Assembly (NCBI GenBank): GCA_961205875.1
Contig: OY540816.1
Span: 12,410,701 to 12,474,700 of the forward strand
Direction of reading: 5' to 3'
DNA: 64,000 nt
Source: Sialis fuliginosa
Taxonomy: Eukaryota; Arthropoda; Insecta; Megaloptera; Sialidae
Both the position numbers and the translations under genes were made by a program. The notes beneath the pieces are model-generated. The model saw nothing but the letters and a program-made list of their open reading frames with translations. It was not told the origin of the DNA and did not search any database. Shown here piece after piece: positions 3,866 to 56,963 of the stretch; within the stretch, counting starts at the first letter, position 1, and each line of letters begins with the position of its first letter.

Positions 3866-4151
3866 GAACATGTTAATCGAATTGATACCTGAAAGTTAAA
3901 ATTTACCTTGAGTTTTTACAGTTTAATACATTTTTATAAATAATACCCACATTTATAACATTTATTTCCGCGACAATCAGTTGCTGATTTGAGAATAATG
4001 ATGATGCATTTTTTGCTATGTTTAGTTTAAATTAAATTATTAAAATATTAATTTACAAATGAATAATTTTTCATATCAAAACGTAATTATTTTCCTTGAA
4101 ATAGCAAGCTTAAAATATATTTTTTACAATATTATTTTTTCTATTTCAGCC

Positions 4152-4209
4152 ATGTCTACAGAATCAGGAGATTACAATGAAATTATCGAAAGTTTACTAA
4201 ATAACACCG
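4152..4209 (+). CDS. First coding exon of an unrecognised gene (start codon, 5' splice donor)
   Basis: A strong acceptor (pyrimidine tract ending CTATTTCAG at 4149) is followed by CC and an ATG at 4152. The frame reads MSTESGDYNEIIESLLNNT and stops after one base of the next codon at a canonical donor, GGTAAGTTT (GT at 4210). The exon itself starts at 4150, so two bases of 5' UTR are joined to an upstream non-coding exon not identified with confidence. The peptide is acidic (four D/E in the first 13 residues) with a short ESLL amphipathic stretch, and has no signal peptide or recognisable domain. The phase-1 end matches the phase of the exon at 18736. I do not recognise the protein. The exon call rests on both splice sites and on the phase agreement with the next two exons. 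A fortuitous ORF is possible but unlikely given all three. Confidence 0.7.
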
Positions 4210-4402
4210 GTAAGTTTTTATTTCTATAAGTATTTAGCTGTCAAAATATAAAATTTCCAATTCAAGTAATCCACGCTTCGAGCAAGCTTATTGGATATTA
4301 TTTGAGACGCTTAAATGGTGGTAGAGAATGTAACTGTCATATACATATATGCAAAAACATAATAACTAACAAATAAAAAAGTAATGTTGATTTGTCATGC
4401 AT

Positions 4403-4563
4403 GGGGTCGTATTTATTTTTGTTTATCGTTTAGGAATCTTTTTTAGTTAGAAGCAAAAATCAAAAAATACCCAAACACAAAAGTTTTAGCAAAAACTTGC
4501 ACGTGTCTTAACTATTCTCAAAAATATAAGTATATAAAAATGCCTTGATTCGTTTTTCTAGCT
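4403..4563 (+). repeat. Dispersed repeat, inverted partner at 46783-46944
   Basis: The block begins GGGGTCGTATTTATTTTTG and ends AATGCCTTGATTCG. It reappears on the opposite strand at 46783-46944 with scattered substitutions. There is no coding potential and no resolved termini. It is probably part of a longer transposon. Confidence 0.65.
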
Positions 4564-4582
4564 GTTCAATATTTGTATATTA

Positions 4583-4759
4583 AGGGTCGATCCTGGTCCG
4601 GTCTCGATCCAATCAAATATAAATAAACAATAAACAATGAAAGCATCCACACTATAGGTATCGTGCCGGTCTCGCTCCAGTCACACTCCAATACAGTATA
4701 CTGAATATTTGACTGGAGCGAGATCGGACCGGGATCGACACGATAGTTTGAATCGGCCC
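4583..4759. mobile_element. Short foldback element with GGTCCGGTCTCG arms
   Basis: The left end, AGGGTCGATCCTGGTCCGG, is mirrored on the right by GATCGGACCGGGATCGAC and a terminal ATCGGCCCT. A third, internal GTGCCGGTCTCGCTCCAGTC repeats the arm. No target duplication is clear. It is non-coding and has the character of a MITE. Confidence 0.55.
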
Positions 4760-5389
4760 TAGCTGTCAGTAGTGATAGATTAAGTAGAAAAAATCAAAAT
4801 ATTTTAAAATAAATGTAGGGGAAAGGTTTTTAAGATGGACACCCTTCGCTTTTTTGCTCATAACTTGTCTGTAAATTTATTTTTCGCGAATGTAAATCTA
4901 CCATTCGAAAGAGGAACTTAATAACTATAACTTTGCTGGAGAAACTTATTGAATACTGCGATAAGATTAAAAAATATAACTAAAAAATCAGAAAAGCTTG
5001 AGTTAAACTGCCTGATTTACGATCTGTTATAGATTTTTCATTTACTGTGTTAGTTTTATATTATACGCCGCGCCGTGGCAGTCGCTTTCGCGGATTTTGT
5101 GTGGATTAAACCCGCTATAAAAGAGACCATTTTTAGTTATTATCTATAACTTTTGCTTAGCCCAGTAAAATAGTACAAATTTTTCTAGCAGGATGCATTT
5201 AATAATATAAAGAACTATTAATTGAAATATGTAGGAAATATATTACAAAAAGTTTGAACAGCACTGTTTAACTCAAACAGCGACACCTATTAAATTATTT
5301 CAACAATAGTCTTAGCGAAGACACGAACCTTATTCTCCAGTTAAACAATAGCTTCCAGCGGCATAACTCTCATACAGTTCGCATTGATA

Positions 5390-5402
5390 CCGCTAGATGG
5401 CC
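5390..5402 (+). promoter_or_regulatory. CTCF-like motif (candidate)
   Basis: CCGCTAGATGGCC matches the insect CTCF core pattern at every core position, and lies in a GC-richer patch (5270-5460). A motif this short occurs by chance and inside some LINE tails, so this is a candidate only. Confidence 0.25.
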
Positions 5403-6372
5403 TAGTCTCACACAGGTGTTACAGGTGTGTTGTAATGTGACATTGACACTTAAATTTATAACTGACTGACGTGTTTTTGTATTACTATAATTTATTATCT
5501 TTTCATATCGTACTCTGTACATAGAGGGCAGCATACGAGTACATTGTGGGTATTTAAAATAATCTAAAATAAGTTAAGTTTAATGTTTGTTTTTACTGTT
5601 TTAAATATCAATCACTATTATAAATTATGTTTGAATATGTTTCATTGCAGTAAGGGCAATTGTTTGACCTTATTGTTTGTGAAATGGTGTCAATATACAT
5701 TAACTGTATAACATTTAAATGTTTATAATTACGATTAATAATAAATAGCAATAAATACTTTGAAATTCAAAATGTAAATAATAAAATGTATCTTATATAA
5801 TAGCTAACAGCCAACATATGTACATGATATTGGTCGTGAATATTCATAATTGAAACTATTTCATAAAATAAATACTCATATATGGAACATGAAATAAATT
5901 TTTAATTCGTATTTTTTTCAGTAGGTTTATATTTTATTTATTTTTATGATTCAGTGGAAATAACATAGATGTAATCTTTGCGAAGGTGTTATTATTTCTG
6001 AACTATTTAACTCACCCGTGTCACAATAAATTTTCACTGCTTCTCATTAATTATTTTTTAAATTATTGCCAGTAGCGGGGAAACGGGTTATAATATTATA
6101 TTAAAAATTTTAAATTACGAAACAATTAATTTTTTTTAATCATCAAGTTACCCTCCCTCTTAGATTTTTTTTGGGGGTGGTGGGGGTAAAAGTAAATATT
6201 TTTTCCTTTTAGTTGAAAAATAATGTTTTTTTTCAAATGACTGACACTTCACAATTTTCAATATTTTAAAAATTTCGAAGTTTTAAGATTACTTTTTTCA
6301 TATTAAAAAAACAACTGGATACCGTTTATAAATGTCCCTCCACATTTACAAACAAAATTGTTCATCCATATA

Positions 6373-6746
6373 AGATACTGGCACCAGTTATGGCCGCTAT
6401 AAGAACAAGGTTTACTGTTTTTGTGATTGACAGGCTTCTTTTTTCTAATTCTCATGTACTCATGTTACTAATAAAACAAGTAAATCTTTATTTAATCAAT
6501 TTAATTACCAAAGTCCGCAAAAATAGCCTTTTATTTTTATTTTTTTTCTCCAGTAATGGATAAAGTAAAACTAGTAATGAGCACGCAATGATGGACACTT
6601 GCTAATGATTACAAAATGATAAGTACTACGACACAAAAGATATAAAATAAAGAATCGTCAAATGTAATAAATTAAAGTAGTTGCTATGATAATATAATTA
6701 TTAATAAATAAATTATATTAATTATTATAATCACGTACCAGTACCT
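6373..6746 (-). mobile_element. TA-target MITE family, copy A (internally deleted)
   Basis: The ends are AGATACTGGCACCAGT and its counterpart ACGTACCAGTACCT, flanked by TA on both sides. This is the usual target of the Tc1/mariner superfamily. The interior matches copies at 26415 and 57196, but the roughly 160 bp next to the TCTTGGATATG end is missing. The element is non-coding and non-autonomous. The strand is set relative to the copy at 57196. Confidence 0.75.
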
Positions 6747-7450
6747 TATATACTATATACTATTTACAACTGCCCCTCTGTTTTTTTATGATATACCTAC
6801 ATATGTTCTATTTTGTTGTTTTATCTTTTTTAGGGAGTCATTTTGAAATAACGTAATACATATTATTCTTACTATATTTACAAAAAACGGCCCATCACTT
6901 TTACATTTTGAATTTCATAATTCAGTGCATTGAACAGATAGTATTTACCTTATACATAGGTACTACATGTCTGAATCCGTCACTTCTTGCAAACGCAAAG
7001 ACAATAAAAACTTTGGCGCCAAGTCGGGTAGAATTAAATTACTTACACAAAGAATGTATTGACAGTGATCGATAAAAAACAAGAGCAGTACGGAGATTAC
7101 AGAAACCCTAAACCGGTGTTTGCGTGTAGGTTGATGCCCTGTTGAAGGTTGTATGTACCCGGGGACTCTTAAGGTCACAGGGTCTATAATTATCAGCGGA
7201 TGCAATTATTGTCCATGTGCATGTTGTCCATTGTTTGATTTTTTATATTTAATCTAAAGATTTTATATCTTACTAACGTACATTAGTACTGTAGGTATAA
7301 TTTAATTAAAATACAATTAAACTGCTCCAAATTACCAGCTACAAAAAAATGTCAAGTACGAGTCGAGCTTCGTGTACTAGTGTCCCGTACCATATTGTTT
7401 TTCAATTTATTCGATTACGTTAATTTAATTCAATTTTAGCAAGTAAAAGA

Positions 7451-7759
7451 ATTACTACACGGGAAAAAAATTTTGATCTGAAGTGATCAAATCATTATTG
7501 TTCATTGTTTTTTGATCTGTGAAGACCTGCAAAGATCTACAACGATCTACAAAGATCTCTGAAGATCGTTGTAACATCAATGAAGTTTCAACATTTGAAT
7601 CTCTATCATGCTATAAAACGATCTTTAGAGATCTGTTGTAGATCTTTGCAGGTCTCCACAGATCAAAAAACAGTGAAAAATATGATTTTATCTCAAAATG
7701 CAGATCTATCCTAGATCTGATTTGATCACTTCAGATTTAATTTTTTTCCCGTTAGTAAT
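7451..7759. mobile_element. Long-arm foldback element rich in GATCT motifs
   Basis: The ends ATTACTACACGGGAAAAAAA and AATTTTTTTCCCGTTAGTAAT are inverted. Inside them, arms of roughly 120 bp pair, including CTGAAGTGATCAAATC, GACCTGCAAAGATCTACAA and their complements. The motif ARGATCT is reiterated many times. No coding sequence is present. A single-stranded or RNA copy would form a long hairpin. Confidence 0.75.
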
Positions 7760-8880
7760 AAAACTTCGTCTATTAAGAAATTGAAGGCTTCAAATGTTCT
7801 GTAATTAAATAATTTTCTTTTAATATCGGCATCATTATACATTTCCCCATTTTCTTCTGATTTTTCTCATTATTTTTTCAATTTTTTTTTTAATTTGTGA
7901 GATGAAGATTTTAAAATAAAACGTTTGCATTTAAAAAATCCTTTAATTTCCAGCTTTCTTAAAAAAATGCCATAAACTTAAAATTATATTTTTGTAACAC
8001 ATGTCAGTTATTGGTAATATATACTTCATTATTTAATTTAAGATATTCGTTGTGAACTTTGACATCAATGGTGTAATCTGTCTCTAAAGACAAAACATCA
8101 TCGCAGTAGCAAAAGTGTGGGTGTACAGGCACGTGACTTTACTCGAGTAATACGAGAATGGCACACCGCCAACCGATCCTCAGATAAAAATGATATTTCC
8201 TATTTACTATTGTTTATATTATTTACAACGTAGAATTAAATAAACATGTAAATATGAAGAATGGTGTACAGAGTTAACTTTAACAAATGTTTCTGAATAG
8301 ATACTAATCATATTCTTAAAGTTTTTGATACTAATAAACCTAGAAAATTCAGTGTCAAAATAAAAATTAAACATTTAAGGGTATACAGAGTATAAAGTGT
8401 AAATATATTTATATTATTATTTTTATATCAACTTTTTTGTATTTATATCCATAGAATGTATGTATAGTAATGTATACAATTCGTGTTTAGTAGGTATAAA
8501 ATTGTAGAGTATTTTTTTAATATTGATATTTATCGTGAATATTTTATTCTATTTTGTGTATATAAGATTTTATTTATTTTAGTATTTGTTTATAAGATCT
8601 ATAAAAAATAAACGTATTCACATATACCTATAATATAGAATCAATTTAAATACAATACAAAATTTAAAAACCAACTGCGAGGAAAAAAATAAAAACGCAA
8701 TTTATATAAAAGTATCTTATATTCATATATATCTATGGTGTTAGGTCATAAAAATATAAAAATGTGATTTCTCTAGAGAGCGTTTAGAAAATGTGATCTT
8801 ATTTTGTAATGAAATTATCATATATTTTTACGTATTTAACGAACGAATAATTCAAAGGAAAGAACATATACAAAACTAAT

Positions 8881-9210
8881 GTCGGGTATTATAAAGGACC
8901 TAGCAAATTTGTTAGCTAGCAAACACTTTCAAGTGAGATATCAAACTTATATGACAGTTCTTTTGGAGTTTGTTGAAGACTTTGACAAGTTTCGCGCACG
9001 CGTTGTAGGTAAATACCAACGATATTAAAACAGTGGTGATATTATGAAATTTATTTTGTATGGTGAAAGATACCAACCGTGTTACAATTAGTTGAAGTGT
9101 CACTGCTCTAAATTCCATAACTAATCCATAGATACTAGTTCAGAATTAATACCCCATTTGAAAGTAATTGCTAGCTAGCAAATTTTGTTAGTTCCTTTAT
9201 AATACCGGAC
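8881..9210. mobile_element. MITE with about 45-bp inverted ends
   Basis: GTCGGGTATTATAAAGGA followed by CTAGCAAATTTGTTAGCTAG is mirrored at the right by CTAGCTAGCAAATTTTGTTAG and TCCTTTATAATACCGGAC. A second, truncated copy lies at 47675-47758. The target site is unresolved. A short minus-strand ORF inside has no transposase features. Confidence 0.72.
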
Positions 9211-10149
9211 ATAACAATAAGTCGAAAAAGTGTTCATTGGAAAATGACCAAAATGTCAGATATCATGTTATGACTAAATACCACTGATATAAATAATATT
9301 GTATATAAGGTAACTGCCAGAATTTTTCAACAAAAATAGATTATTAATTCGTCACTAATAAATAAATCAATTTATCTAAAATCTGGAGTTAACAACTTTT
9401 AGTAGGTAACTACAGAAATAATGATTATTTCCCGAAAATTGTAAGGAGGTTCAAAATTTTAAAAATAATTTTCACTAATAAAACAAACATATATTTTTTA
9501 AATTATTTAGTTATAGTTTTGTATAAAAGTAGGTAAATATTGAACATAATTTTTTGTTTAGATTATATTCGAAAATTGATGACTCTTGATACATTTTTAA
9601 TATTCTTCGTGCTGGTACTGAAAATTGAAAAATAATAGGCTATATTCAATCGATACAAGTATTAAATCTTATCAAACAATAATTGTTTTCCATAAATTAT
9701 ATATAGGCATATGACCTCCCTCAATGCTATGATATTGAACCATTACAATTTATATTCACGGAAATTGTTTTCAAGTCTGCGTATACAAGATGCATGACTT
9801 GAATGTTCTAGAGGTACCCCGTGTGTATATTCGTTATTTATATAATTTATTCATCATGCGTTTTGGTCAAACACTAAAATAAGGTATGTTTATTTCTTAA
9901 TTAGTAGATATGAAAATATTGAATTTGATATTTATATTTTTATGACCAAATTAAAAGCAGTTCCTTGCAGTTTCACTGGCAATTTTTATTTAAAAATCAT
10001 TCATTTTTAGATATTTTATTAGAAACTGGTAATTAAATACATTTTTTTAGTACGTATCTGACTGAATTATTCAATATAAATTTTTAGTTTGATTACATCA
10101 ATATCATGATTATTTGTAATTTTATAATAATACAACAATTGTAATTTTT

Positions 10150-10305
10150 CCCTGATCCGGCCCTGTTCTACTTCAGTTATCATATAGCCTGAACTAATTT
10201 TAAGGACAAAGGCTTCAAATAGCGAAAGTCCCATCTAAATCGGTTCAGTAGTTGTAATATCAAGTCGAACAAAAAAAAAGACATTCATACAGACAAAAAT
10301 TTTAA
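10150..10305 (+). repeat. Non-LTR/SINE-type 3' end
   Basis: 'CCCATCTAAATCGGTTCAG' followed by 'tagttgtaatatcaagtcga' and 'acattcatacagacaaaaa' is the familiar tail of arthropod LINE/SINE copies. No reading frame survives. Confidence 0.5.
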
Positions 10306-12621
10306 AACTATATTAAAATAATATGGAATCAATAAATTGTACAGACAGAACCTACATTTTTATATATTTATTATATAAAGTTTTATGTATATTGTATACT
10401 TATATAGTCTTCTTATAGACTATTAATAAGGAACAATTACGTTAAAAGGTTTTTATTGTTTTATATATTTTTTATAATTTATGTGATTTCTCGCGAAATA
10501 AGTTTTTACCAAGTAATCACCTGCATGTGGGGTCAGAGAGGAATTAATCATTTTAATAGTTTTCATTGCATATTTATAGAATTAAGATTTGTACACTCCT
10601 ATGTGTTTTGGAATTTATAAATAATGTTTCTATTCATCTACGAGTACATTCATATTCCAAATTCATTTGAAAAATTTAGGGAAGCGGTGAGGATTCTTAT
10701 CTTTTTTATATTTTACTACTTTTTTAATATATATAATAAAGCAGAAGTTTTGATTTAATTATTGTTTTGAATTATAATATTGTACGCATAAAATTTTTAT
10801 ATGTATAAATAATCATTGTTTAAATAATAAACGTACAAGGCTTAATTTCAACCCTGACAAAACTGACACAATTTTAATAGAAAAAATTTACATTTACAAC
10901 ATATATAGTAAAATGGGCCAGTAGTTGGCAAAATACAGATAAAGCAGCAGTATTTCATTGTCACAATATTTTATAGCTTTGAACTAAATAAATACAGATG
11001 TATCACACCACCTAACTGTAAAAACATCTTATAAATATTTTGATGATATACAATTTTTACGACGATTTTAACGTTATTTTATCTCTTACTTATTTATCAT
11101 TACAGTATATCAGCAATAATAAATCACTATTTTTTTTTGTTAATATGAATGGATATAAAATCAAACGTAGGTAGTTGATATGTACAGTCAGGTATAGTGT
11201 ATAGTGTAGATGTACTATTCTGGAAGAAAATATTTCCTCACTATTCTAATGATTCAACCTCTAACATTTAAGTATATAGTTTGTATAACATTCGTTGTAT
11301 TAAAAAAAAAATTTCCGAGTAGCTCCGCGTTCTGTGTTGTTTTCTTGACGACGTTTCGGTCGAATCCTATCAAGTATGGTCAGAACTTAGTTCTTTGAAA
11401 TTCGCTTGACTAAGTAGTGACTGACTAGAATTTCAAAGTATCAATTGCCACCAAAATAAATTAGATCTGATATTCTTTTTCAAGAAATTCTGAAATCTAC
11501 TTTTTGCAGTCTCTCTGTTCTAATTAAAAAAGGCTTGACCGAATTCGATAAAATTTCATTCATATCATACTCACAGCAAGATACTTCGATTGACACCCCA
11601 ACGAAGGCAATAGCATTTTTTGTTTGCGAGATTTCATGTAGGAAAAAAATGAAACATAAAAATATGTTGAAATTTTTAATTTCGATTTTCGAACCGATTA
11701 CAATAACTTCCTAATGTGAAGTCACAAAGATTTTTTTAATGTAATTAGACACATATAATAGTGCATTGTACAATTAGTCACGTTGCACTTATGGCAGCTT
11801 TTTTTATTAATAATTGCGCAATTTTGTGATCATATCTATAGGTAATTCTCAGTTTTATTTATTTTAATTCAAGGCTTTAGAATTATTTGTGTTTACGGAA
11901 ATTAAAAACTTTGTTTCTAACAATATACAGAGCACATTGAAATAATTATATATTAATGATTATTTTCATCTAGGCACTTACTATAAATAGTTACTACATT
12001 AAACATCAGTAAAAACAAATATTGATACATTATAATCAAACAATATACTTGCATACAATATGAATAATAATAACACCATATACCTAATGAAATAAATAAA
12101 CAGCTCTAAAAAGACATTGATTAAAATATTAATTTATTACCTATTCTAAAGTTCACCTAAAAATAATATTTGTTTGAATGCACTTGAATTGAAGGTTTGA
12201 ATGACATTGAATGCATGCAAACCAATAAAAAACTCTAGTTAATATTTGATATGGAGTAGCAATTAGGATGGTCGTCAAGGACAGCACGCGAGCTTTACGG
12301 TTGACACAATCCTTGAACTTCATAAAGGATGCATGGATGGTGAATCGATTTGCCATTTGTATTATTGATATTCATTATTAATTATTACTATACTGCGCAT
12401 ATTGGATATTATTTAAATATGAACAAAACATTGCAGTTTTTAATATTCAAATAATAAAACTTTTTGTGTGGCTGGTATATATGACGAGTCGTCTGCAAAA
12501 GTTTTTCCAAGGGTGGGAGAGACTTGTAAAAAGAAAAAAAAATCCTTTTTTTTGCTCTCCAACTCCACAAATAAAATTTTTGTACAATGGTAAGATGAAA
12601 AAATCTTCATTATCACAAATT

Positions 12622-13116
12622 ACACAGCTACACAAAAAAAAGTGCGAAGCCAAAACAAGCGACCTATGTATATAATATTGTAATATTGGTCGAGCATAGT
12701 CGAAATCCAAATTTTTGGAATTTTCTGTTTACCCGCTTACCGTTATTTTTATTTGAGCTTGATTTTCGGGCTTAGGTTGAATATTTCTAAGTTGGCTAAA
12801 CCCAAAATTCAAGCTCGAATTAAAAAAAAAAACTGGTAAGCAGAAAAAATTGGATTTCGACTCAATACTACAATGATATTTAGGTCGCTTTTTTGAAATC
12901 ATACACTTTTTTTTAGAAAAATTCAATCTAAACCCAAAATTCAAGCTCAAATAAAAAAAACCGGTAAGCAGAAAATTCCAAAAATTTGGATTTCAACTAT
13001 GCTCGAGCAATACTACAATGCTATTTAGGTCGTTTTATGGTGTCGCACACTATTTTGGAATAAATTCAACATAAACCCAAAATTCATGCTCAAATAAAAA
13101 AAAACTGTAGCTGTGT
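12622..13116. mobile_element. Foldback MITE with CACAGCTAC ends
   Basis: The terminal ACACAGCTAC is mirrored by GTAGCTGTGT. The interior repeats the unit AAACCCAAAATTCAAGCTC followed by 'aataaaaaaaaccggtaag' three times, once inverted. It also holds inverted blocks around GCTCGAGCATAGTCGAAATC. A second copy starts at 63914 and runs off the right edge, confirming the left end. Non-coding. Confidence 0.65.
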
Positions 13117-14098
13117 TCTTAAACTAAATATTGCTTTCCCTTTCGATATACAACCCAGGGAAGAGGCAAACAACACGTTACTGTTGTGTTACCTTACGGT
13201 ACGTTATGTTAAGTCGTATTCTAGGGGGGAGTGTTCCATCCCTCCTGTTGTATTGTATATTCTTCGTTTTTAAATTTATCCATTCAGTTGTATGAAATTT
13301 TCTTTTCTTTGTATAAGAACTTGACAAAAAATATACTGGTTATAAATATGAGCTTTGTCTTCCATAAACAGGTACAAAACCATCACCTTGAATCCTAATT
13401 GTCTTCATAATATTTTTTACTGAATATATAAAACACATTTTTCTTTGTTTCACATTTAAAATTAAATTATTAAGAACCAATTTAGTTCTGTTTAAAATAA
13501 TTAAATTCTAATCTCATAATTATACTGCTTCATAATAAATTAATAAAATATTAGGGCATATTTTTTAATTTATGAATATTTTTAACATACATAACATTCT
13601 ACACTCAGCTAAATTATATTAATAATTATATATTTATTATTATATATTATATTTATTTTGATGAAAAATGTGACGTTTGGATATTTATTGCAATCAATTA
13701 TTATTATTATTAAAGAACATTAAAAACAGAGACATGTTTATTATTAAAATGACAGTGAATATAATTATAGATATACAATATAATTAGCTAATTTATCTAG
13801 TAAGCAAACCGCCTTTTTTATTCGACCTCGATTAAACATTATATTGGCAATGCCTTCAGAAACAATTATTTTGATTATAGAGTTTACTTACATACATTTA
13901 CGTCCTGATTTGTTGCACGATTTCATATATTTAATTGCTGAAACAAAAAACCGGAAGAATCTTCATCAATTTTAGTTTCTTTGTAATATTTATGAATTTT
14001 TTATAAACTTTTTATTTATTTTTAATTATAAAATATAGAAAGTCGAATTAAGAATCAACTATTATTAACTTACAATGTTTTAAAAGTAACAAATTATA

Positions 14099-14633
14099 AG
14101 GTACTGGCACCAGTCTTGAACAATACCCCACTGTTGAATATTTTTAAATTAAATGTACCGAATTAGAAATATTTATTGATAAGTGATTACTGCCATTACT
14201 GAAAATTCATCTATATACATTTAACTGTCTTACAGCGTGATTTGATGATAATTGATCATTTTATTTAAAAATAGTGGACGAAGAATTATCGTATGTATTT
14301 TCTTCTGTAAATGCTTTTCATTGTTTTAAATTGTATAACTTTTTATTTTATAAAGTTTGTGTAGTAGTATTATACTAATAATTTTGTAATCTTTAGCAAG
14401 TGTTTATTACTGGTTTTACGTTGTTCACTACTGGAGAAAAAACACATACAAAATAAAAGGCTATATTTAAAAAAACAAACTATGTTTGCAGATTTTGGTA
14501 ATTAAATTGATTTAATAAAGAGTTAGTTGTTTTATTAGTAACATGAGTTCATGAGAATTATAAAAATGTAGCCCATCAATCCCAAAAATAATATACTTTT
14601 CTCTTAAAACGTTCAAGACTGGTGCCAGTACCA
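14099..14633 (+). mobile_element. TA-target MITE family, copy B (near full length)
   Basis: It starts TA-AGGTACTGGCACCAGTCTTG and ends AAGACTGGTGCCAGTACCA-TA, so terminal inverted repeats of about 20 bp are intact. Its interior shares GTCTTACAGCGTGATTTGAT and GTAACATGAGTTCATGAGAA with the other copies. No ORF of transposase type is present. Confidence 0.8.
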
Positions 14634-14711
14634 TAAGTAAGCAAAGCCAAACAAAAATCTTTTTTAGGGGTACGGAATTGCTCTATGTTCTTTAACATAA
14701 GTTAAATTTAC

Positions 14712-14975
14712 TCTACTTAAGTCATAAAAAACTTCTCATAACAAGTGCTCTTGTGAAGTTGGTAAACCCTATTTGAGACAATTTAAAATGGGCACATTAT
14801 TTTTTTTGTTTGTGATTCAATTTATAACAATAACGATCAGTTACTGTACTTAAGTCATACCTTCTCATGAAAAGTGTTCTTATGAAGTTGGTAAACCCTA
14901 TTTGAGACAATTTAAAATGGGCACATTGTTTTTTTGTTTTTGATTCAATTTATAACAATAACGATCAGTTCTGAT
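14712..14975 (+). repeat. Tandem duplication of a 133-bp unit
   Basis: ACTTAAGTCAT at 14715 and again at 14848 open two copies that share GAAGTTGGTAAACCCTATTT, AATGGGCACATT and ATAACAATAACGATCAGTT. Few differences separate them, so the duplication is relatively young. The unit itself is not recognised. Confidence 0.8.
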
Positions 14976-15531
14976 GAAATCTTATTTCTTCTTTCATACA
15001 GGCAGTAACTGCTTTAAACTAGATTCGTTTAAGAATGATAAACATCAATAATGGTACTTCCATTACTAACAAGTTTTCTTATATTATTCAAGATAAATCC
15101 TGATAAGAAAACAGTCAAAATCAATCAATAAACATTTTCTATAATAGCTTCCTGATCGATGAAGAAGGTGATTAACTTTGTTATTGTGGAGCTTTCGGTA
15201 GCCTTGTCTGTTTTAATTTCTAATGTTTATTATTTTTTTATAGTAAAAACTTGTTTGTTTTATAAACATTGTATATATTATTAATTTCTTTGTAGTATAT
15301 AATTATCAATTATAAATGGTTTGTCGAAAGTAGTTGTTTTTTAAATTATTATTGTAAATCAAGAAATGTTTGTTATATATAAGTTGCTTCTTCATAAATA
15401 CAATTTATGTATTCATGAAAATGTATATATACAAGTAAACAGTAAAAAGTTTTTAAATGTTTTCTTTTTTATTCTGTATTATAATTTGTTCGATTGTAGA
15501 AGAAATGGTGAAAAATATTGTAGAAAAAACT

Positions 15532-15800
15532 TCTGCCAAGTAAATGCACAGTGCTTTCTCGTTCTAAATTGATTGACAAGGATTCAGGGGACAGACAGAC
15601 GGATACACGGACAGACACACGGACAGACGCACGGACACACGGACGGACAGACAGGCAGACACGGAACGAAAAGTGTTTGCCTTGACGTGAAACGGATAAA
15701 TCTTTAAAATTTTGAAATCGGAGAACATTTTTTTTGTCTCAATCTGAAACGATCACAAAGCTTCTCGTATCTTCGATTTTGCGTGGAAGCAAAATGTCTG
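15532..15800 (+). repeat. LINE/SINE-like repeat, copy 1, with ACGGACAGAC minisatellite
   Basis: It opens CTGCCAAGTAAATGCACAGT and closes GATCACAAAGCTTCTCGTAT, as does the copy at 40082-40660. The middle 300 bp of that copy are absent here, replaced by about 80 bp of imperfect 8-10 bp units of the type ACGGACAGAC. There is no coding frame. Confidence 0.68.
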
Positions 15801-16379
15801 CATTTATTTTTGCACAGACTCCCGCAAACCTTGGCTCAGATAGTGTTTTATTGTTTCCTTAGCAACGCTTTTATTAATAAAACACTATTTAAAAACATAA
15901 TGTGTTGAATAGTAAGGCGGTAAAAAATGTAGACAAAATCTTATTTATTGTATTAACATGTACTAATATCAATAAATTATAATATATCAAATCATATTAG
16001 GTAACGGACCACTGTGTGTAGGAAATGTACTCCACTGACAGATGTGAATTTAATAAAGATTTATTAATATATTGGCACGAATTTACATTCTGATTTAATT
16101 ACATTATGAATTAAATTACCTATATTAAATTACTTCAATGAAAATTTAAATTGAGCTCTTCTTCTAAAAAAATAATTATAACTTGGTATCTACCTAAAAA
16201 AAGAAAGGTTTCTTGTATTCATAACATGTATAATATTGGAATTGATAATATGATTATAAAATCAACTAATATATTCGTAGAAAATCAAATAAAAAAGTCT
16301 AACCAAGTAATACAAACTTTAAAAAAACATTCGTTTTATGTATATTTTGTATATAAAGTGAAGGAGCTATATTTACGTC

Positions 16380-19989: not shown

Positions 19990-20375
19990 AGGTACTGCCA
20001 CCAGTCTTGGATATGACCCCAGTAATGGTTATTTTTTAATTAAATGTACTGAATTAGAAATATTTGTTGATATTTAATTACTTCTATTTCTGAATATTAA
20101 TCTATATACATTTAACTGTCTTACAGCGTGATTTGATGACAATCGGCCAATAGGTATCAAAATGGTGTATATTTAAACTAATTATTGGTATCATTTATTT
20201 ATTAATTATTATATTAACATAGCAACTGCTTTAAATTATTTCAAATTTGACGAATCTTTCTTTTATATCTTTTGTACGAGTATCGTAGTACTTATCATTT
20301 TGTAATCATTAGCAAGTGTCCATCACCGCGTGCTCATTACTGGGTTTATAGTGGCTATAACTGATGGCAGTACCT
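19990..20375 (+). mobile_element. TA-target MITE family, copy C (internally deleted)
   Basis: TA-AGGTACTGCCACCAGTCTTGG begins it and GATGGCAGTACCT-TA ends it. It keeps the GTCTTACAGCGTGATTTGAT half. The half bearing ATGAGTTCATGAGAATTAC is lost, the reciprocal deletion to copy A. Confidence 0.75.
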
Positions 20376-21087
20376 TATATTATAATATCAGTGTATGAAT
20401 AATATAACTTACTTTTTTAATGTCTGATTTAAAAGAAAAGAGATACATTCGAAATTTTGTCCATGAAACCCAGAACACTCCCTCTTTTTGTGAGCATTTA
20501 AAAAAGATATCTTCACCATAAATTTTCTATAATTATAGAGTTACAATTTTAATTTTTTTATATATGAAGACAATACACGGAAGAAGAAAAAAAATAGTGT
20601 AATCAACTTTCACAAGTTTAATAAGAAGGTTAAACCCTCCGTTGTTCATAAATTTGTGCTCAATGGCAATTACTACACAATGTGTGATGTTTTACAAATT
20701 TGTTTGTTTTCGGAATATGAAATGTGAACATAAATATTTGGTAATTTTTTCAATATAACCCAGACACTGTTTATTTAACTAAAAAGTGTTGCATTACTGT
20801 TCATTCAAGTCAAACGCTTTTAACTGAACTTTGTTTATATTCACGTAAATATATATAGTACTTATTTATAGTTCGATTAAATGGATCTTCATTATTTTGA
20901 CCTGCTTTTTATTGTGTTCCCTACCGAAAACATTTTCTCCGAAATCCCGAGAACAAAACTTACAAAAATTTCATTTTATCAACTTCTTAAGGGACTTAAA
21001 TTTCTACTTACATATAATATAATTGTCAGATTAAGCTATTGTCTATTTCCCAAATTCGGAGTAATTTTTTTTATTAAATCATGTACA

Positions 21088-21175
21088 GTGAAACTTCGTT
21101 ATAACGCTCTTGGGCAGATCGGATCAAAAACGCGGTTTGGACGGGATAGCACAATAAGCGGGGAAAAAATTAGAA
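21088..21175 (+). mobile_element. Isolated pogo/Tigger-like end
   Basis: CAGTGAAACTTCGTTATAAC resembles the terminal repeat of pogo-type elements, which read CAGTNGAACCTCGNTATAAC in many arthropods. The following GC-rich bases also look element-derived. No matching right end is seen nearby, so the copy is truncated. Confidence 0.45.
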
Positions 21176-21659
21176 AATAAATATTTTTCTTAAAAATATG
21201 TTCAAATGTAGAATCATGATTTCATTATAATATAAAAGAAGAAATTATATACGTTATGTATAATAGTTTATGTACTTGAAGCAGTTTTTCTCGATTTATT
21301 GAGGATTAAAAAAATAGAACGGAGAGTTGAACCCGGAATTCCAAGACCCTAAACTAAATCTATTTCAACAAATAGTATATTATCTGCATTGTTATTTAAT
21401 TTTAAACCTATGTATATCAATTGAATTTTAATCTAGACAACCAGGAATCACCTTAAGAAATATATTTGTAATTATAATTTAAAAAAAAACTTGACACACA
21501 TTTGGGTCATTCAACTAAATTAATTAATTATTTCTTAACTTAAATGTTTAAAAATGTATTTTAAATTCAAGAACTAGACAAAACAATGACAGTGCAATTT
21601 TTTTTGCCATATTTAAACTATTTTCGGTGTCAAATTTATACGTTCAAATTACGTAATGA

Positions 21660-21862
21660 CAGGGCCGTAACTAAACGATCTGGAGCCCCGGGCCAGCAAG
21701 TGACCGAGGGGCTCTCACTGTATACAAAATATAAAAATTGAAGAATTTTTTTCGTTACTACCTCAATCCACAATTTTACGCTTGTTCCTCAATCTTTCCA
21801 ACCCCAATTTTTATGCTGCTGCGGGGGGCCCGGGGCACTACTTTGAAATAATTACGGCCCTG
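21660..21862. mobile_element. hAT-type MITE, copy 1
   Basis: Terminal CAGGGCCGTAACTAAACG is mirrored by AATTACGGCCCTG. The flanks are CGTAATGA on the left and AGTAATGA on the right, a 7-of-8 match. That fits the 8-bp target duplication of hAT transposons. The GC-rich interior (GGAGCCCCGGGCC and GGGGGGCCCGGGGC) is shared with the copy at 21903. Non-coding. Confidence 0.8.
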
Positions 21863-21902
21863 AGTAATGACATTTTTTCAAAAAAAAAACACGAAAAACC
21901 AT

Positions 21903-22204
21903 CAGGGCCGTAACTAGAGGTTCGGGGGGCCCGGGGCAGAAGGTAATCTAGGGGCCCTCATTATAAAATTTTTTTTGAACACTTTTGAAGTATAAAATAT
22001 AATATAATATAAATATGTAAGTGTCACAAGTTCCAAATCAAAACGGCTAAAAAACACATTTAAAAATAAAAATTGACTCATTGATATCTTGTGAGTAACA
22101 AATGGTAGAGGGACATTCTTTTTTTGTAATTTTTTTCGGGCCCTTCCTAAGCTCGGGGGCCCCGGGGCACAGCCCAGGTTGCCCCGGTGGTAGTTACGGC
22201 CCTG
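21903..22204. mobile_element. hAT-type MITE, copy 2, perfect 8-bp target duplication
   Basis: It begins CAGGGCCGTAACTAGAGG and ends GTAGTTACGGCCCTG. The octamer AAAACCAT stands directly on both sides. This is the clearest insertion footprint in the window. The 302-bp element contains no transposase. The minus-strand ORF across it is a by-product of the GC-rich ends. Confidence 0.88.
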
Positions 22205-22359
22205 AAAACCATTACCTATCTGTAAAATGAATATCAAATTTATTAATTTACTTATACAGCTCCACTTTTGCTTAATCACATGGTATTACGGTAATCGCTT
22301 ACAAATGTCTATATTTATAAGAGTTATTGAACTAGTGCTATAAATTTTAGCAGACAGTC

Positions 22360-22640
22360 GGTATGATCGTATGAAAACTAACGGTATTTTACGGTAACGT
22401 AAACCTTTTCCGTATGTTCGCATACACGTTACCTGCACACGCATTATCTCGATATTTTAAATTGATGCCAACGTCTGCAATGCGATATTTTATTTTTGCA
22501 AACTTAACAATAAATGGTATCAATGCACACACGTGCATTATAGCTGCAGTTATATTTACAGAATATAAGCAAGAGCGCTTGTCGTAAATGCGTGACGGTA
22601 ACAGAGATGTATGTAGGTGCGTTTTGAGATGAAATTATAA
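22360..22640. other. Higher-complexity, GC-richer stretch (possible regulatory DNA)
   Basis: The stretch includes GGTAACGTAAACC, CACGTTACCTGCACACGC, CACACACGTGCAT (a CACGTG E-box) and GCGCTTGTCGTAAATGCGTG. It has no repeat partner, ORF or splice pair. Composition unlike the surrounding intron makes it a candidate conserved non-coding element. Confidence 0.25.
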
Positions 22641-24806
22641 TTAACTTTGGGTTTACCTGTGCTGTTCCTTGATCGATACAACGTGTATTTCAACGTGACG
22701 GAAATCGAGACATTGTGTCTGATTCAACACCTGTAACGTGTTGAAAATTGTGAAATTAATAAAAATGGCGATACAATATCATTTGAGTTACATAAACTTA
22801 ATATATTTTTTATTGTTCTATAAGTCTTCGGTCAGAACTTTACTATAACTGTATTTGCCACAGCAAATTATCTCGTAAACTATTTAAGGTAGAAACTAGA
22901 AATGTTAACTAATATATAAAATTGTGACCATCAAATATAAATGTAAAATAGATTTTTTTTAAAGTTAGCCTATTTTTTATATTTAAGCATGTGGGGTATC
23001 AAAATGTAGATCTTAATCAGTAAAACTGCATTTTTTAACTCAAAAATGCCACCACCAAATGGCTCAAAATAGCATTCTAATAACAAATCAGCAGCACCCC
23101 CTTTTAAATTATATTAAATTAATCTGATAGTAATATTATTAAAGTCAAAATAATACAAAAATGCAACTTTCACCCTCATTAAATCGTAGAATACTATGTA
23201 GGTATTTAAAGTAATTACTTATATAGAAGACATGCAGTTCTTTAGAACTCCTCATAGATAAAACTACTCGATTGTTTTACTTATAAATATTGATTGAAGA
23301 CGGCCAAAGTTATAACTTTTAAATTGTCTTTGTTACAAAAACGCTGTTATAATACAAAAGCTAAGGTACAATATGATATAAAATATTATAAAACCTTAGA
23401 TTGAAAACATGTATTGTGATTTGATAAAAAAGATATAAAAAGTAGTTTACTTTTTGATAACATTTAAGACGCCTATATATTCAGCTACAGAACAGAACAA
23501 TACAACGTTTGGTACACCAAATGTCTTAGCAACAAGAAAGCGATATTCCCCTACGCGTTAATTTTTAATCATAAACATTGTATGTAATATTCGATTTGTT
23601 CTACACGTGCTGCATTTAATCTATTATTATTTTTTTAAATATTGCATATATATATTATTGTATATTATATTGAATACACAGTACATAATTATAATTAGGT
23701 AGGCCTTCAAATATATGAGTATAAATAAATGTGAAAAATATACTTCAAACAAAATTTCAAAAATCATTAACCATATGGTTTTATAGTTAGCAAACATTAT
23801 AAACTTTAAATAACATACTGGGATTACTAGTGGGATAGGAAGATATTCACAGGAGTGATCAGGTAAGGAGACACTCACAAGACCCAGTGTGTTGCGAGTA
23901 TTCAAAAGGGAAACAGCTGAGTAGCTATAGTGATATCTGTTTGTAAAAAAATTATTAAAAGTTAAAGCAAAAAAGAATAGCAATGTCATATTTAAAATAT
24001 GCGTCTAATAACAAAAATAACTGTTTTTTTATGGATAAAATTTCATGTAATGATATTCTTACAATTAGAGAAGTTAAATAAGTTTTGTTTAGATAAAAAT
24101 AATATGAAATGCGTCAAAACGGCCCCCACTACGGCTATTAGACAAAAATTTCTAAGTATAAGATAATTAATTGGAAAAGTATGTTCACACGTTTTATAAT
24201 ATAGGGGATACGGTATTATTCTGAATAATATTCTAACATATGGTGTCATGTATACTATATAGATAACTAACGACAATTCATTGACCATTTACAATTCGTA
24301 GAATAAAATAAATAACAATACCTAAAACCATTGATAGCATAAATGTATAAAACGTTTACAAATATATAATAATAAAAAAATATTCTGAATTTATTTTTTT
24401 AATTAGGGGGTTCTGTATTTTAGAAAAAATATGAAGAATATAATTGCCAAAAACTTCTAGAAAATATTTCTGAATTAGGTTTAGATTTTCTGCATTAATG
24501 CTTAAATGGATAGATGTATTATACTTACATTAATTATGGAAAGTACTTTTAAACATAATGTGTGACATTAAAAATATTTTTTTTGAACAATAACATTTTC
24601 TGTTTTGAACATTAAAATTTTGTTTTGCGCAATAATATTTGCATTCATTATTATTGTATAATTTAATTTGCTTTAATTTTATAACTTTAATTTTTTGATG
24701 TGTTAGAATAGACATAACCTAACGAAAACTAACCAACCCAAAACTAATCAACTCGATTTCGCTTCAATAGATTGCCCTAAGGACAGTTAACTTGTATTTT
24801 ATTTGA

Positions 24807-24901
24807 ACATCAACTTTGTAAATTCTATAATAGTTTATTAAGTGTTTATTTAATGTTCTTCACTATTTCTCATTTCATTTAAAATAGTGCGCATTTAATT
24901 T
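24807..24901 (+). repeat. Dispersed repeat, inverted partner at 30605-30707
   Basis: ACTATTTCTCATTTCATTT followed by AAAATAGTGCGCATTTAA, with TATAATAGTTTATTAAGTG upstream, appears reverse-complemented at 30605-30707 in the same order. The family is unknown and non-coding. Confidence 0.6.
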
Positions 24902-26089
24902 GTTCCCATTATACTATGATATTTAAAGGTCGTAGCTCATAATGAGATAATTTAACAGCAGAGAGAAAAAAGTTTTCTACTAGTTTTATTTTATCACTGT
25001 ATTTAGTTATATTCAGTAAAATCAGTAATTCAATTTCCAAAAAAGTATACACTTATTATAAATAATGAATTTCATAATTGTGTAATAACCCAGAATTACG
25101 TTTACTCCTATGTAAGTAATTTCAAAGTAGTTTTTACTTTTATCAATAATTTAGACCTCAGAATGGTTGATGATTTTTTGCCAGACTGAGTTTTAGACTA
25201 GAACATAATAATTCAATGAAAAGACAACATAATAATAATATTAAATTAGACAATAATGTTTTTATAAAACTCAGGCAGTCTTTACGCGAAAAATATTTAT
25301 ATAAAAAATATATAAAACGTTTTTGTTAGAGAATTTTATTATCTTTAATTTTATATATAACTGTTTTTGCCCAAATGGGACGTAAGAGTGTGAGTGAGAG
25401 AGCAATAAGAACGTGCAGAGTAGAAAAACTCGCTTGGTTGTTAATTAAAATAAAGGCATTTGCCGATAAAAATCTTGAAAATTATGTATATCATATTATT
25501 AACATCTATTTGAAGATTATACAAAAAATTATATAATATGAAAACCTAAATTTACGGTTTCATGAACTTTAAAAAAATTATAACAAATAAAGGAGTAGAG
25601 TTACATGTATGAGTGTAAGGACCTTTTTTATGTGAAAAGGTCTAAAAATAATACTAACAAGTTTTTGATTACAAAAAACATTTTTTTCTCTTTGTAAGGC
25701 CTTTTCGCGGTTTTAACAATATCCAACCTATAGGTATCAACTGGCACCTTACATTTTTATAATCAAGCCAACCTCCCCAATAAGATAAAAATAAAACATT
25801 CAATCGGAATAATTTTCCGAACGACCGCGCTACTATCTGGCCTATTTTTGAAGTATAAAAGGCAAAGCAATAATTAAAAAATTGTTTTTAATTTGTGGAT
25901 GTATGTATTAAATAATAGCAATAAATAAATAAATATATAGATAAATAATGTCACCTGTTTCATGCATATTTTTTGATTGTTAAAAAATTGATTACATGAA
26001 GTTTTAGAGTTTTTCATGATTACACGTGTGAATGTAGTGTGTAGTAGTATATGTATATTTTAATTAAAAGTTATAATACACAATAACCC

Positions 26090-26200
26090 TGCCAGTTCTG
26101 CGTACACGTGATGGATGTGACACTCGGGTTCTGGTGTAGATCACGTGTGCCGGGACATTGGGCCCACATTAATGCGCAGACGCATAAGGTCACGCATTTA
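26090..26200. other. GC-richer patch with CACGTG-type sites
   Basis: CTGCGTACACGTGATGG, GATCACGTGTGCCGGGAC and GCGCAGACGCATAAGGTCAC lie within 110 bp. There is no ORF or repeat partner. It is possibly a regulatory element, and the evidence is compositional only. Confidence 0.22.
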
Positions 26201-26414
26201 TATTCAATCATAGATGTTTATGCGTATAAATGACGTTATATAATTAAACGTTTTATGTTGAAAACCATATAAGTTAATTTCTTAATTTTGTCTGCTCTGA
26301 GATGATTGAATTTTTGTATTTGTAAAGATTTTCATGTTGAACTTTCGACGCATTTTGTTGATTCAATCAAACTATGTTTTAATTTTATTAATATATATGC
26401 ATGTATTGTATATA

Positions 26415-26978
26415 AAAAACTGGCACTAGTTATGGCCGCTATAACTGTTTTTGTGATTGACGGGCTTCTTTTTTGTAATTCTCATGAACTAATGTTATTA
26501 ATAAAACAAGTAACTCTTTATTTAATCAATTTAATTACCAAAGTCCGCCAATATAGTTTGGTTTTTAAATTATAGCTTTTTATTTTATTTATGTTTTTTC
26601 TCCAGTAATGGATAAAATAAAACTAGTAAAGAGCACGCAGTGATGGACACTTGCTAATGATTACAAACAAAATGATAAGTACTACGACACACAAGATATA
26701 AAAGAAAGAATCGTCAACTTTGAAACAATGTAAAGCAGTTGCTATGATAATATTAAAATTAATAAATAAATTATACTAATAATTAGTTAAAATGTCCACC
26801 ATTTTGACACCTATTGGCCGATTGTCATCAAATCACGTTGTAAATGTATATCAAATCAGTTAAATGTATATAGATTAATATTCAGAAATGGTAGTAATCA
26901 AATATAAAAAAAAATTCAGTACATTTAATTAAAAAATTGTCATTACTGTGGTCATATCCAAGACTGGGGCCAGTACCT
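26415..26978 (-). mobile_element. TA-target MITE family, copy D (full length, reverse orientation)
   Basis: The left end, ACTGGCACTAGTTATGGCC, and right end, CCAAGACTGGGGCCAGTACC, next to TTA match the family termini. The interior runs opposite to copies B, C and E. At about 564 bp it is the longest copy and a good reference for the family. The ORF starting upstream of it at 26306 is a chance frame through its left end. Confidence 0.8.
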
Positions 26979-27249
26979 TATTTTATTTTATATACATTTT
27001 GTAGGTAGTACAACTAGAATATAATCATGGAACATAAGGGATTCAATGTTACTTCAGACATACTCAAAGTTTGCTCTCCTGGTAATTATTATAACAGACT
27101 CTTAATTCTTTCAAATTATTATCAAATTGCAGACGAGTTGGATTGTTTTGATTCCATTTTTCTTGAACCAAAAATAATACGAATGGTAAATTTTTAATCT
27201 GTATTCAAGTTATTACAATTTTTTTTTAAAAACAATGAACTCGAAACAA

Positions 27250-27330
27250 AAAAAGTCACTTTTGAATCACTGTGCGCCACCCCTCCTGGTCTGGCGCCCC
27301 GGGCAGTCGGTCTAGTTCCCCCCCCCCCTT
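27250..27330 (-). repeat. C-tract repeat fragment, partner of 17786-17880
   Basis: Read on the minus strand, a G tract is followed by GCCCGGGGCGCCAGACCAGG and AAAAGTGACTTTTTTTG. This is in the same order as at 17786-17880. Confidence 0.5.
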
Positions 27331-27479
27331 ACCTTTAAATATTCAATATAAAATACAAGGATGTCTGTCATTGCACTTTTATATAATCTCTGGATTGCAC
27401 GCTTTTACAAACACATATAAGAATATGTATAATGTACATATACGCACACACAATGACAAACACATGTCTTTGAAAACCG

Positions 27480-27625
27480 ATCTGTAAGGTGACAAACGTC
27501 TGGAAACGTGGATCTTACATGCGCCAGCTCTCGTCTTACCGGTCTCGTGAAATAATTTCCAAACGTTCTGTGTGGGGTTGATCAGATGTTGGAATATGGT
27601 TTCAGAAACGTGACATGCTTTCAGT
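27480..27625. other. GC-richer, unique-looking stretch
   Basis: GTCTGGAAACGTGGATC, GCGCCAGCTCTCGTCTTACC and TTCCAAACGTTCTGTGTGG contrast with the AT-rich intron. I see no repeat, ORF or splice pair, and function is unknown. Confidence 0.22.
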
Positions 27626-27756
27626 TCAGATTTTATTTTTATCGCTATTATTTAATTCTGATTATATAAATAAGTAAATGTCAATGATATTGAATTCATG
27701 CTTGATTGGCAATATTAATTAATATGGATTGTTATTTTAAGGTTTTGTCATTTTTT

Positions 27757-28291
27757 AACCGACTTCGAAAAATGAGAAATTTCTCAATTCGTTTGTATAT
27801 ATTTTTTATATATAATCCGATATAACTCCAACAGAAATGCACTAATTTGGACAATTGTACTCCCGATTTAACTTCCATATATTTTTTTTCAAAATCACTT
27901 CAAAAAGGAGAGGATTTTGAATTTTGCTGTATATATATTTTGTATGTATTTTCGGGCATAACTCCGGCAAATATGCACCTATTCGGTAAAACTTTTTTAT
28001 TTGAAAGAGTATGCTCCCGAGGTAGTCCCGTATAAATTTTATCAGAATCTGGCCATGGACTTCTTAGCCACTCAAAAAGGGGAAAAAACTTAAAAAAATA
28101 AAATTAAACTGACTTTAAAAAAAAACGTATATAAAAGAAGGTACATATATTTTAATAATTAAATTTAAGTTTTTGAAGTAGGTGTCAATCCAATAAAAAA
28201 AAAACCTCAAAAACTGTTTTTAATGATTTTATTATTTTTTTAATATATTATTATTAACTTTTCAAAGTTTTTAATTTTTATTTTAAGTCGG
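27757..28291 (+). mobile_element. ACCGACTTC-type element remnant
   Basis: It starts TAACCGACTTCGAAAAATG with TCTCAATTCGTTTGTAT and ends near TTTTAAGTCGGCTG, an inverted echo of the start. I recall abundant insect repeats, especially in Lepidoptera, with the same opening. Inside, two blocks ('ataactcc-(a/g)-caaatatgcac' type) repeat. No intact frame is visible. The class is uncertain. Confidence 0.5.
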
Positions 28292-28460
28292 CTGTATTGT
28301 ATTAGTCCAAATTATTATTCTGAGTGGTAAGATTGATAAGTTTAAAAAAAAAGAGAATAAATATTCATTGTAGCCTTCTTAAATTACAAAAAAAACATCT
28401 ATGGGGGACATAAAAAGGCTAAATGCCGAAACGAAACTTTTTTTGTTTTTTTTTAAGTCG

Positions 28461-28856
28461 GACGATACGAGAGCAACTGAAATTTGGACGAAACGACTCG
28501 AGACTCTAGTAGCTTTATATAGGTATACATAAGTCTCGTCGAGAGTCTCGGTTTTAAAATATTATCAATAATTAGTAAAAACTATTTGATAACAATATTT
28601 AAATCAATCATTAAAGTAAATATAAGTAAGATTCATTACATTTTAAAATTTATTTCTTTATTCATAATTTTTTATTAAAAAAATCATACTGATTTTTTCT
28701 CACGATCTCAGTCACGTGTACGAGATGAAACCGAGATGAGGTAGCTTCAATTTTCAGACGAGACTTGTAAAATTCGAAACCGAGAAAATACTTTAGTTCG
28801 AAAAACCGAGACGAGGCGAAACTTACCTGACTTTTGTCTCGTGTGCAGTCCTAGAC
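28461..28856 (+). repeat. GAGACGAAAC-rich dispersed repeat, copy 2
   Basis: GACGAAACGACTCGAGACTC opens it and GAGACGAGGCGAAACTTACC closes it. The core TCTCGGTTTTAAAATATTAT plus CAATAATTAGTAAAA is almost the same as in the copy at 42728. It ends GTGCAGTCCTAGAC. Confidence 0.68.
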
Positions 28857-30604
28857 ATAAACTATTGATATTATTGATTAATATGTTAAAAAGGACTATT
28901 TTATATATCTCATAAATAATAATAATACATTCAAAACTACATCAAACATACTCATACAAAAAACTTACTTTTAATCGATAATAAAACTACCATAATCATT
29001 ATGCTTGTATATTAATTATTCAGATGTTTTTTTTATCTTTTATATTTTAATTTTTTGCTGTTTTACTTTTATTCTTCCATTTATACTATAAAATAGTATT
29101 TCATTGTCAGAGTCAAAAATTATAAGATTACATTCAAAATTAAAAAGCCATCATAATTATTTTATAAATATAAATCAGATAGTTGTTGACAAAATTTAAA
29201 CTTTGTAAAAAAATCATACATTTGTATCATAAATAAATAAGATATTAAAATTTTTTGTTGATTCAATTATGAAATATTTATCAAATTATTTAAAATGAAG
29301 ATTAGTGTTTATTTATGCATAATTTCTGAAAAATATTTTCCTATTTATGTACCTGAAAACAAACATATTATTATTTTTAAATGACATAAATATGTTATCT
29401 GTTATTTATTTTTAACAGTTTTTTAGATTTTAATTATTATTTTTAGACTTTTATGATAAATTGCGAAATACATTAACTAGCTTCTAATTATAATATTAAA
29501 ATAAATATTGATGTATGAGTATTTTATTATATTTCTTAACAATTAATACGTCAATAAATATAATCGAAAACTGCATATTTATTTGTTTTTTAAATATTGG
29601 ACTGTACCTACTTTAAAAATAATTATATAAAATAAGCTGAAAGATTAGTATATAATGTACAAAATATTTTTAAAGAAATTGAAATATGTACATATTTAGT
29701 AAAAGCATCGACCTTTTCCACGTGAAAATGACAATTCAATTTATTTAATTTCTTTTCAATACAATACAGTGACGCGTTGTCCTGTTCGATAATTAAAAAT
29801 GATTGGCTGGCATCATGTGGCGGACACGTGGAAAACAATGTGAAAATAATCGTTTCACTATAATAAAATGATTTCTTGCTACATCAAATACTATACACAC
29901 CAAAACATAAATGCTTATTCGACAATAATTGAATTGGTAACATTAACGACAAAAAAATTTAGTGGAAAATATTAGCATTTTTATGTGTTTTTTAGAATGT
30001 TTTGTAAAAAATATTTAACATATCAACATATAAAAAATGAAATATATATAGTTTATGTACATATATAAAGTATTCAGCGATAACAAACACGTGAAAAAAC
30101 TTAAGTTCAATATATAACTGCACGTTAAAAGTCTTACGTGAAACCCCAAAACATATTCAATGCAATATCTGACGGAATTTTGACTGAAATCACATTAGAA
30201 GAAGACTTGGCTGGTGCCGAAATAATTTGTGGTTATAAAAATATTTTTTGTATCAAAATTTTTAAAAGGCAATAATTATTTTCAAATCTATCGAAAAGAA
30301 ATTATTAAGAATAAAATAATTATTCGGTGTTAAGAACCACTGCTTCCTCCACATTCATATTCTAATACGCTATTACCATTTAAATGTAAACATGGTAGTT
30401 ATTTGAATTCTGATAAAATAACTACGTGAAAAATGCTTACATGACCCGCGAGCATGTGACAACAAATGTAAATAAAAAAGACGTACGGTCTAACTTTTTG
30501 TTAAAAATATTTGCCTTAGATGATTATTCAAACTAAAATTACACGTACACATTAATTAAAAATAAAACAGAATTCCCAAAAGAATAATATTAGAGAAAAA
30601 ATAA

Positions 30605-30707
30605 AATGCGCACTATTGTAAATAAAACAAGAAATAACGAAGAGCATTAAATAAACTATTCTAACACTTTATAAACTATTATAGCATTTGTAAATAATAT
30701 TGAACAG
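30605..30707 (-). repeat. Dispersed repeat, partner of 24807-24901
   Basis: AAATGCGCACTATTGTAAAT and GAGCATTAAATAAACTATTC, with TATAAACTATTATAGCATTT, are the reverse complement of the block at 24807-24901 with moderate divergence. Confidence 0.6.
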
Positions 30708-32040
30708 TATTTTTTGTGTTTTAGCAATACTTAATATAAACTAGCGTTAAGAAAATAAATAAATAATAAAATAAAATAAAAATTACTACTACCCATAATG
30801 TTATACTTATTTTATTTTATACAAACTTGTTCATAATATTATTAAATACCATCTTACAAATAGTAAATATGAAGCACTCTGTGTTATTTCTAATTGTTAG
30901 TTTCACTTAAATTAACATAATATTAAACTAATCAATACTATAATTGTAGTAGAGTAATTATTCTATCCAATGTTGTAATCACAGTTGTATATAAAAATAT
31001 TAGAGGGTAGACAAAATAACATATGTATATTGTATATTCTTACACTAGACATTATTTAAATATGTATTTATAAAGATACTACTCGTTCATGGTATAAATG
31101 GATGGTAAGATTTTATCGGTATTATAATTTTTAATAGCGTTTGTTATTTTACTTACAATTTTTTTGTATTTTAGGTTGCAATGTCATTAATTATGCTCTT
31201 TGTAAATTGATTTTGATGTCAAAAGATACACTGAATTTTAAAACGGCATTGCTGGATTTCTAAAAATAACTCCACTTGAGTAATTTTAAACAGGAGAAGT
31301 TTATTAATATACTTAAGTACATACAAATGTAAACGAATCCTTAAATAAATTACTATTTAGATTTAATATTTGATATACGTTTTCATTTTCATATATAAAT
31401 GCTATTTCCAGCGTCCTTGCATTTCAGTGGGCGGATGTGTACTGACGAAGAAATGTTATTTATATTTACACTTTTGATTAACACAAGTGGCGATGTTATT
31501 AAATAATTGACCAGCTAAATATACTCGATATCTATTTTTTTACAAAAATACCTAAATATAACTTTTAATTTGTTTAGTGTTCATATTATCTATTTTTGTT
31601 ATTACAGTTATTTTTGTGTGTATACGTACTGGGAAATCAGATTAATTATTTTTATTATTAAAGTTAATTACTTATTTTTAGAACAATTGAATATCTTCTG
31701 ATATTTTGTATATAAAAGTATAATATATATTACATTTTTTATTGTTTTAGATTATCATTTTTTATTTAAATACAGAAGAACCGATACTTCGATATTTAAC
31801 CAGAATAATTATCAAAATATTTTTATTGTTTTTTTTTTTAAATAAACCAAAATAACTTTCTAATCTTATTTTCCTTCTACTGAACTGTCTATGCTGTTTT
31901 GGTGTGTAAATATAGAAGAATAGGTACTTCGAATGTTTAGCCATAATATTTATCCTAATATGTTTATTGTGTTTTTAAAATAAACCAGAAACACATTTTT
32001 GACAATTTTGAATTAAAGTACTTTCCTTCATTTTCTACAG

Positions 32041-32063
32041 CATCTTTTTCAAGTGCTAATCAG
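32041..32063 (+). CDS. 23-nt microexon of the same gene
   Basis: The acceptor is CTTCCTTCATTTTCTACAG's terminal AG at 32040. Then come 23 nt and the donor CAGGTGAGAAA (GT at 32064). With the G carried over from 18765 the frame reads ASFSSANQ and ends exactly on a codon boundary (phase 0). Skipping the 30-nt exon would join 4209 to 32041 in the same frame. Only the next exon, outside this window or undetected within it, would show the protein family. Its small size makes chance splice-like signals a concern, but the acceptor is among the best in the window and the phase fits. Confidence 0.55.

Positions 32064-56897: not shown

Positions 56898-56963
<66 letters not shown>

Follow-up and report, generated by a model that had tools for sequence, protein, structure and literature searches.

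Do three very short exon-like segments, set more than 13 kb apart on one strand of insect DNA, belong to a single gene, and if so, to which part of it? The window analysed here is the whole stretch of 64,000 nt, with a G+C content of 27.1% and a CpG observed/expected ratio of 1.08. An earlier sequence-only reading had proposed exons of 60, 30 and 23 nt whose phases run 1, 1, 0, and on re-reading the sequence we find these lengths, their splice sites and the phases to be as stated. The features on which the following argument turns are these:

Exon A, 4150..4209, plus strand: 60 nt, CC followed by ATG..., 3′ phase 1; probable first coding exon.
Intron A/B, 4210..18735, plus strand: 14,526 nt, GT-AG; contains repeat copies.
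Exon B, 18736..18765, plus strand: 30 nt, symmetrical (phase 1-1); the weakest exon.
Intron B/C, 18766..32040, plus strand: 13,275 nt, GT-AG; contains repeat copies.
Exon C, 32041..32063, plus strand: 23 nt, phase 1-0.
Start of the presumed next intron, 32064..64000, plus strand: runs to the window end; no Pfam matches in the plus-strand frames.

Splice sites and the open frame

Donor and acceptor are consensus-like and of the U2 GT-AG type at three of three exons. With slashes marking the exon edges, the borders read ttctatttcag/CC...CCG/gtaagt for exon A, taattgcag/GTT...TCG/gtaagt for exon B and ttttctacag/CAT...CAG/gtgaga for exon C. The ATG lies 2 nt inside exon A, whose product is MSTESGDYNEIIESLLNNT plus the first base of a G codon; exon B finishes this codon and continues with SELSSLSHV, and exon C finishes an A codon, followed by SFSSANQ. 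Joined, the three exons amount to 113 nt, consisting of CC, the ATG and 36 more codons, free of stops and ending in phase 0, with one and three stops in the remaining two frames. The claim of a single 37-residue open frame, with phases chaining across all exons, is thereby reproduced. The peptide is also as acidic and serine-rich as had been described, containing 10 Ser, 4 Glu and 1 Asp and neither Lys nor Arg.

How much can be read into such a frame? A join of this kind is open by chance in 13.6% of exon-body shuffles and in 6.3% of random triples drawn from the window, and with chance openness of 6–14%, an open frame by itself is weak evidence. For this reason, we consider it likely that the exons are coding, yet are less sure of this than of their being real. 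The frame also stays open when A is joined to C without exon B. As the length of exon B is divisible by three and both its ends are in phase 1, either inclusion or skipping of this exon in frame would be possible.

Pairing of splice sites compared with simulated sequence

Sites were scored on both strands with a generic insect splice matrix, untrained on the source species. On the plus strand, the acceptors of exons A, B and C come 5th, 11th and 7th among 2,620 and their donors 1st, 12th and 3rd among 3,357, the exon A donor being the strongest on that strand (score 8.5). A cut of 6.0 for donor and acceptor alike was fixed before we had looked at any score. On the plus strand, it leaves A and C alone, and on the minus strand no pair; exon B, at 5.7/5.8, falls below. 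When the cut is lowered to 5.5 and the length held to 9–90 nt (a choice made post hoc, just under exon B), the plus-strand pairs are exactly A, B and C, with one pair (45715-45755) on the minus strand. At still lower cuts of 5.0, 4.5 and 4.0, the plus strand holds 4, 6 and 11 pairs and the minus strand one each, with means of 0.27, 0.60 and 0.98 over 60 shuffles.

For comparison, we simulated 450 windows (150 dinucleotide shuffles, 150 order-3 Markov and 150 order-5 Markov sequences). At the cut of 5.5, the mean number of pairs was 0.13, 0.23 and 0.25, respectively, and none of the 450 contained three, against three on the real plus strand. This excess of splice pairs over simulated sequence is not mirrored by single sites: those scoring at least 5 number 19 donors and 16 acceptors on the plus strand versus 22 and 21 on the minus strand, hence no plus-strand enrichment. 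It is pairing at short distance, and not single strong sites, that is the unusual feature here. Tests for transcription along the plus strand were weak or null, with (T-A)/(T+A) at 1.3% across the window (p=0.006; weak) and counts of 201 versus 218 for AATAAA and 33 versus 30 for GTRAGT. Together, paired site strength and phase favour the proposal of one gene with one frame, best for A and C and less so for B, and exons A, B and C are probably real and from one gene.

Neighbouring exons, gene family and repeats

Where might further exons lie? When pairs with an open frame are ranked by the sum of their two scores, the order is A (14.8), C (14.2), 45118-45136 (12.8), 5416-5424 (12.4) and B (11.7), so that two plus-strand pairs which fit the phase chain exceed exon B. 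Any exon next after C must begin in phase 0, and the 19-nt plus-strand pair 45118-45136 does fit in phase there. It is nevertheless probably no true fourth exon but a decoy contributed by the border of a transposon, because its donor reaches into one of the arms (64 nt, 92% complementary) of an inverted repeat, 45140-45203 / 45577-45640. The whole of 45140-45640 is likely a small inverted-repeat transposon. The second pair, 5416-5424 (plus strand, 9 nt), would fit between A and B and has a donor that also serves three other pairs; the longer 5341-5424 (84 nt) is open solely in frame 0, does not match the phase chain and was rejected. Upstream of exon A, the window holds a single donor scoring at least 2.5, at 1206 (score 2.9), and the window may not contain the true upstream exon.

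Pfam and PDB searches with the 37-residue peptide yielded no family, in agreement with the claim that it cannot be assigned to one; an alpha-amylase match with an E value of 0.75 was taken as chance. Failure of this kind is expected for a disordered, serine-rich N-terminus. We find no support for calling the gene unrecognised, as the earlier reading did. Six fragments of the peptide were also searched for in published text, and none was found. A degenerate DNA pattern for GDYNEIIE matched three prokaryotic and two viral stretches, all of which we dismiss as chance. Two of the matched stretches (L004 and L005, identical in sequence) agree with the peptide at 2 of the 6 residues that follow and have a stop immediately before the match, and the remaining three (L001-L003) show no evident likeness beyond it.

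Nor did searches of the wider window recover the remainder of a protein. On the plus strand, Pfam was run over the three frames with X at stops, covering practically the whole window save two bases (32062-32063) between stretches. Nothing reached a curated cut-off in these scans, the one weak match (E 0.069) having 13.4 bits where the cut-off is 27; they were run without a known-positive control, and domains split into tiny exons would escape them. The 138 minus-strand ORFs of 50 aa or longer hit 30 Pfam families at E<=1. The best E among the 25 of these families that are listed is 0.009 (Flocculin) and each comes from one ORF; weak scores spread over 138 scans lead us to reject them as real domains and ascribe them to chance. 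Rfam, at gathering scores, and ARAGORN returned no matches on the window. With no recognisable domain exon found in the window, 31,937 nt of which lie 3′ of exon C, the gene body is most likely past the right end, and the domain-bearing exons would then probably sit outside the window, more than 32 kb 3′ of exon C.

Compared with itself, the window contains 5.4 kb of repeated segments (single-copy repeats being undetectable by this comparison), and none of the repeats within the window overlaps exons A, B or C or their splice sites. One dispersed family occupies 6368-6727, 14096-14630, 19987-20349, 26410-26983, 57193-57714 and 62582-62638, occurring in both orientations, with pieces about 71–94% identical and copies of at most about 570 nt. 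Local duplications at 54818-55022 and 14732-14970 have spacings of 120 and 128-129 nt, respectively, and copies 91–98% identical, and (GACA)n is repeated about 18 times at 56898-56968. An 86-aa ORF on the minus strand (62904-63161) resembles the C terminus of a non-LTR retrotransposon protein; the Pfam search returned nothing for this ORF.

Weighing the readings of the locus

What, then, are these exons? The explanation that we favour, and consider probable, is that A, B and C form the 5′ part of an ordinary plus-strand gene, most likely encoding a serine-rich acidic N-terminal tail of at least 37 residues. The major spliceosome would join them in one mRNA across two introns of 13–15 kb, and translation would start at the ATG of exon A. 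In such a gene, the first coding exons would be short and the 5′ introns long; the product of these exons would be a flexible, presumably disordered tail, and the exons bearing the protein's domains would come over 32 kb further on from exon C, past the window.

The exons could also be real and joined, yet internal to a longer frame or used as alternative cassettes, with the true N-terminus upstream. Exon A carries an acceptor 2 nt before its ATG, which implies a preceding exon if A is spliced and would allow the frame to begin further upstream; the lengths of A and B, both divisible by three, and the 1-1 phase of B would likewise suit internal or cassette exons. Against this stands the upstream sequence itself, in which the sole donor scoring at least 2.5 is that at 1206 (2.9), and when this donor is joined in the frame of the adjoining ATG, exon A runs into a stop at the 17th codon (frame 0). 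This stop bears on the window only, leaving exons further upstream unaffected. We hold this reading to be unlikely, and the earlier designation of the peptide as an N-terminus stands as plausible, with the proviso that the acceptor of exon A would allow the frame to come from upstream. Quite unlikely, in our judgement, is that the exons are real and untranslated, as exons of a 5′ leader or of a long non-coding RNA, and that the open frame is coincidental. The rate at which random joins of this size are open would allow for it, as would the Pfam and PDB searches, which gave coding neither a family nor a relative; against it, the first ATG of exon A is the one that opens the frame, and all three exons agree in phase and frame.

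Could all of this be chance, with splice-like sites arising in AT-rich intergenic or intronic DNA, either at all three exons or at exon B alone? Strong decoys do exist in the window, namely 45715-45755 (minus strand) and 45118-45136 with its donor at an inverted-repeat edge, and exon B lies under the cut of 6.0. Yet three strong pairs are found where 0.13–0.25 are expected, none of the 450 simulations yields three, and we regard a chance origin as very improbable. Little credence, finally, goes to a more specific idea, that of a lineage-restricted protein missing from present annotations in which exon B is a regulated in-frame cassette altering the acidic tail.

How do such exons compare with known microexons? 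Published upper limits vary from 51 nt (<=51 nt; PMC8831610) over 30 nt (<=30 nt; PMC7821500) to 27 nt (<=27 nt; PMC8378409). By size, exon B (30 nt) and exon C (23 nt) belong in the class found in microexon-containing genes, whereas exon A (60 nt) exceeds all three limits. For plants, frequent misannotation or omission of the smallest exons has been described (PMC8831610). A Drosophila study (PMC8797185) describes eMIC-dependent neuronal microexons with a median length of 31 nt and a UGC near the 3′ splice site; their flanking introns are short, their splice sites weak (the 3′ site extremely so) and their CUAAY branch points strong. On this description, exon B resembles them in size (30 nt against the median of 31), in a TGC at -5 to -3 of 18736 (ttGCAG) and in having a strong donor upstream, that of exon A; TGC is absent from the last 20 nt upstream of exons A and C. 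It departs from the same description in its introns, which are 14,526 and 13,275 nt long instead of short, and in its sites, which rank 11 of 2,620 (acceptor) and 12 of 3,357 (donor) by the generic matrix instead of being weak. It differs, moreover, in the last 60 nt upstream, where CTAAC/CTAAT does not occur and only TTAAT is found, at -10. The CTAAY branch-point motif is absent from the last 60 nt upstream of A and C as well. Because of the long introns, the strong sites and the lack of CTAAY, we keep exon B out of the Drosophila eMIC class.

Taken as the start of a gene, the three exons are credible but ordinary. If correct, this interpretation would settle where one gene model begins at its 5′ end and provide a useful example of small exons within very long introns, with no new mechanism implied.
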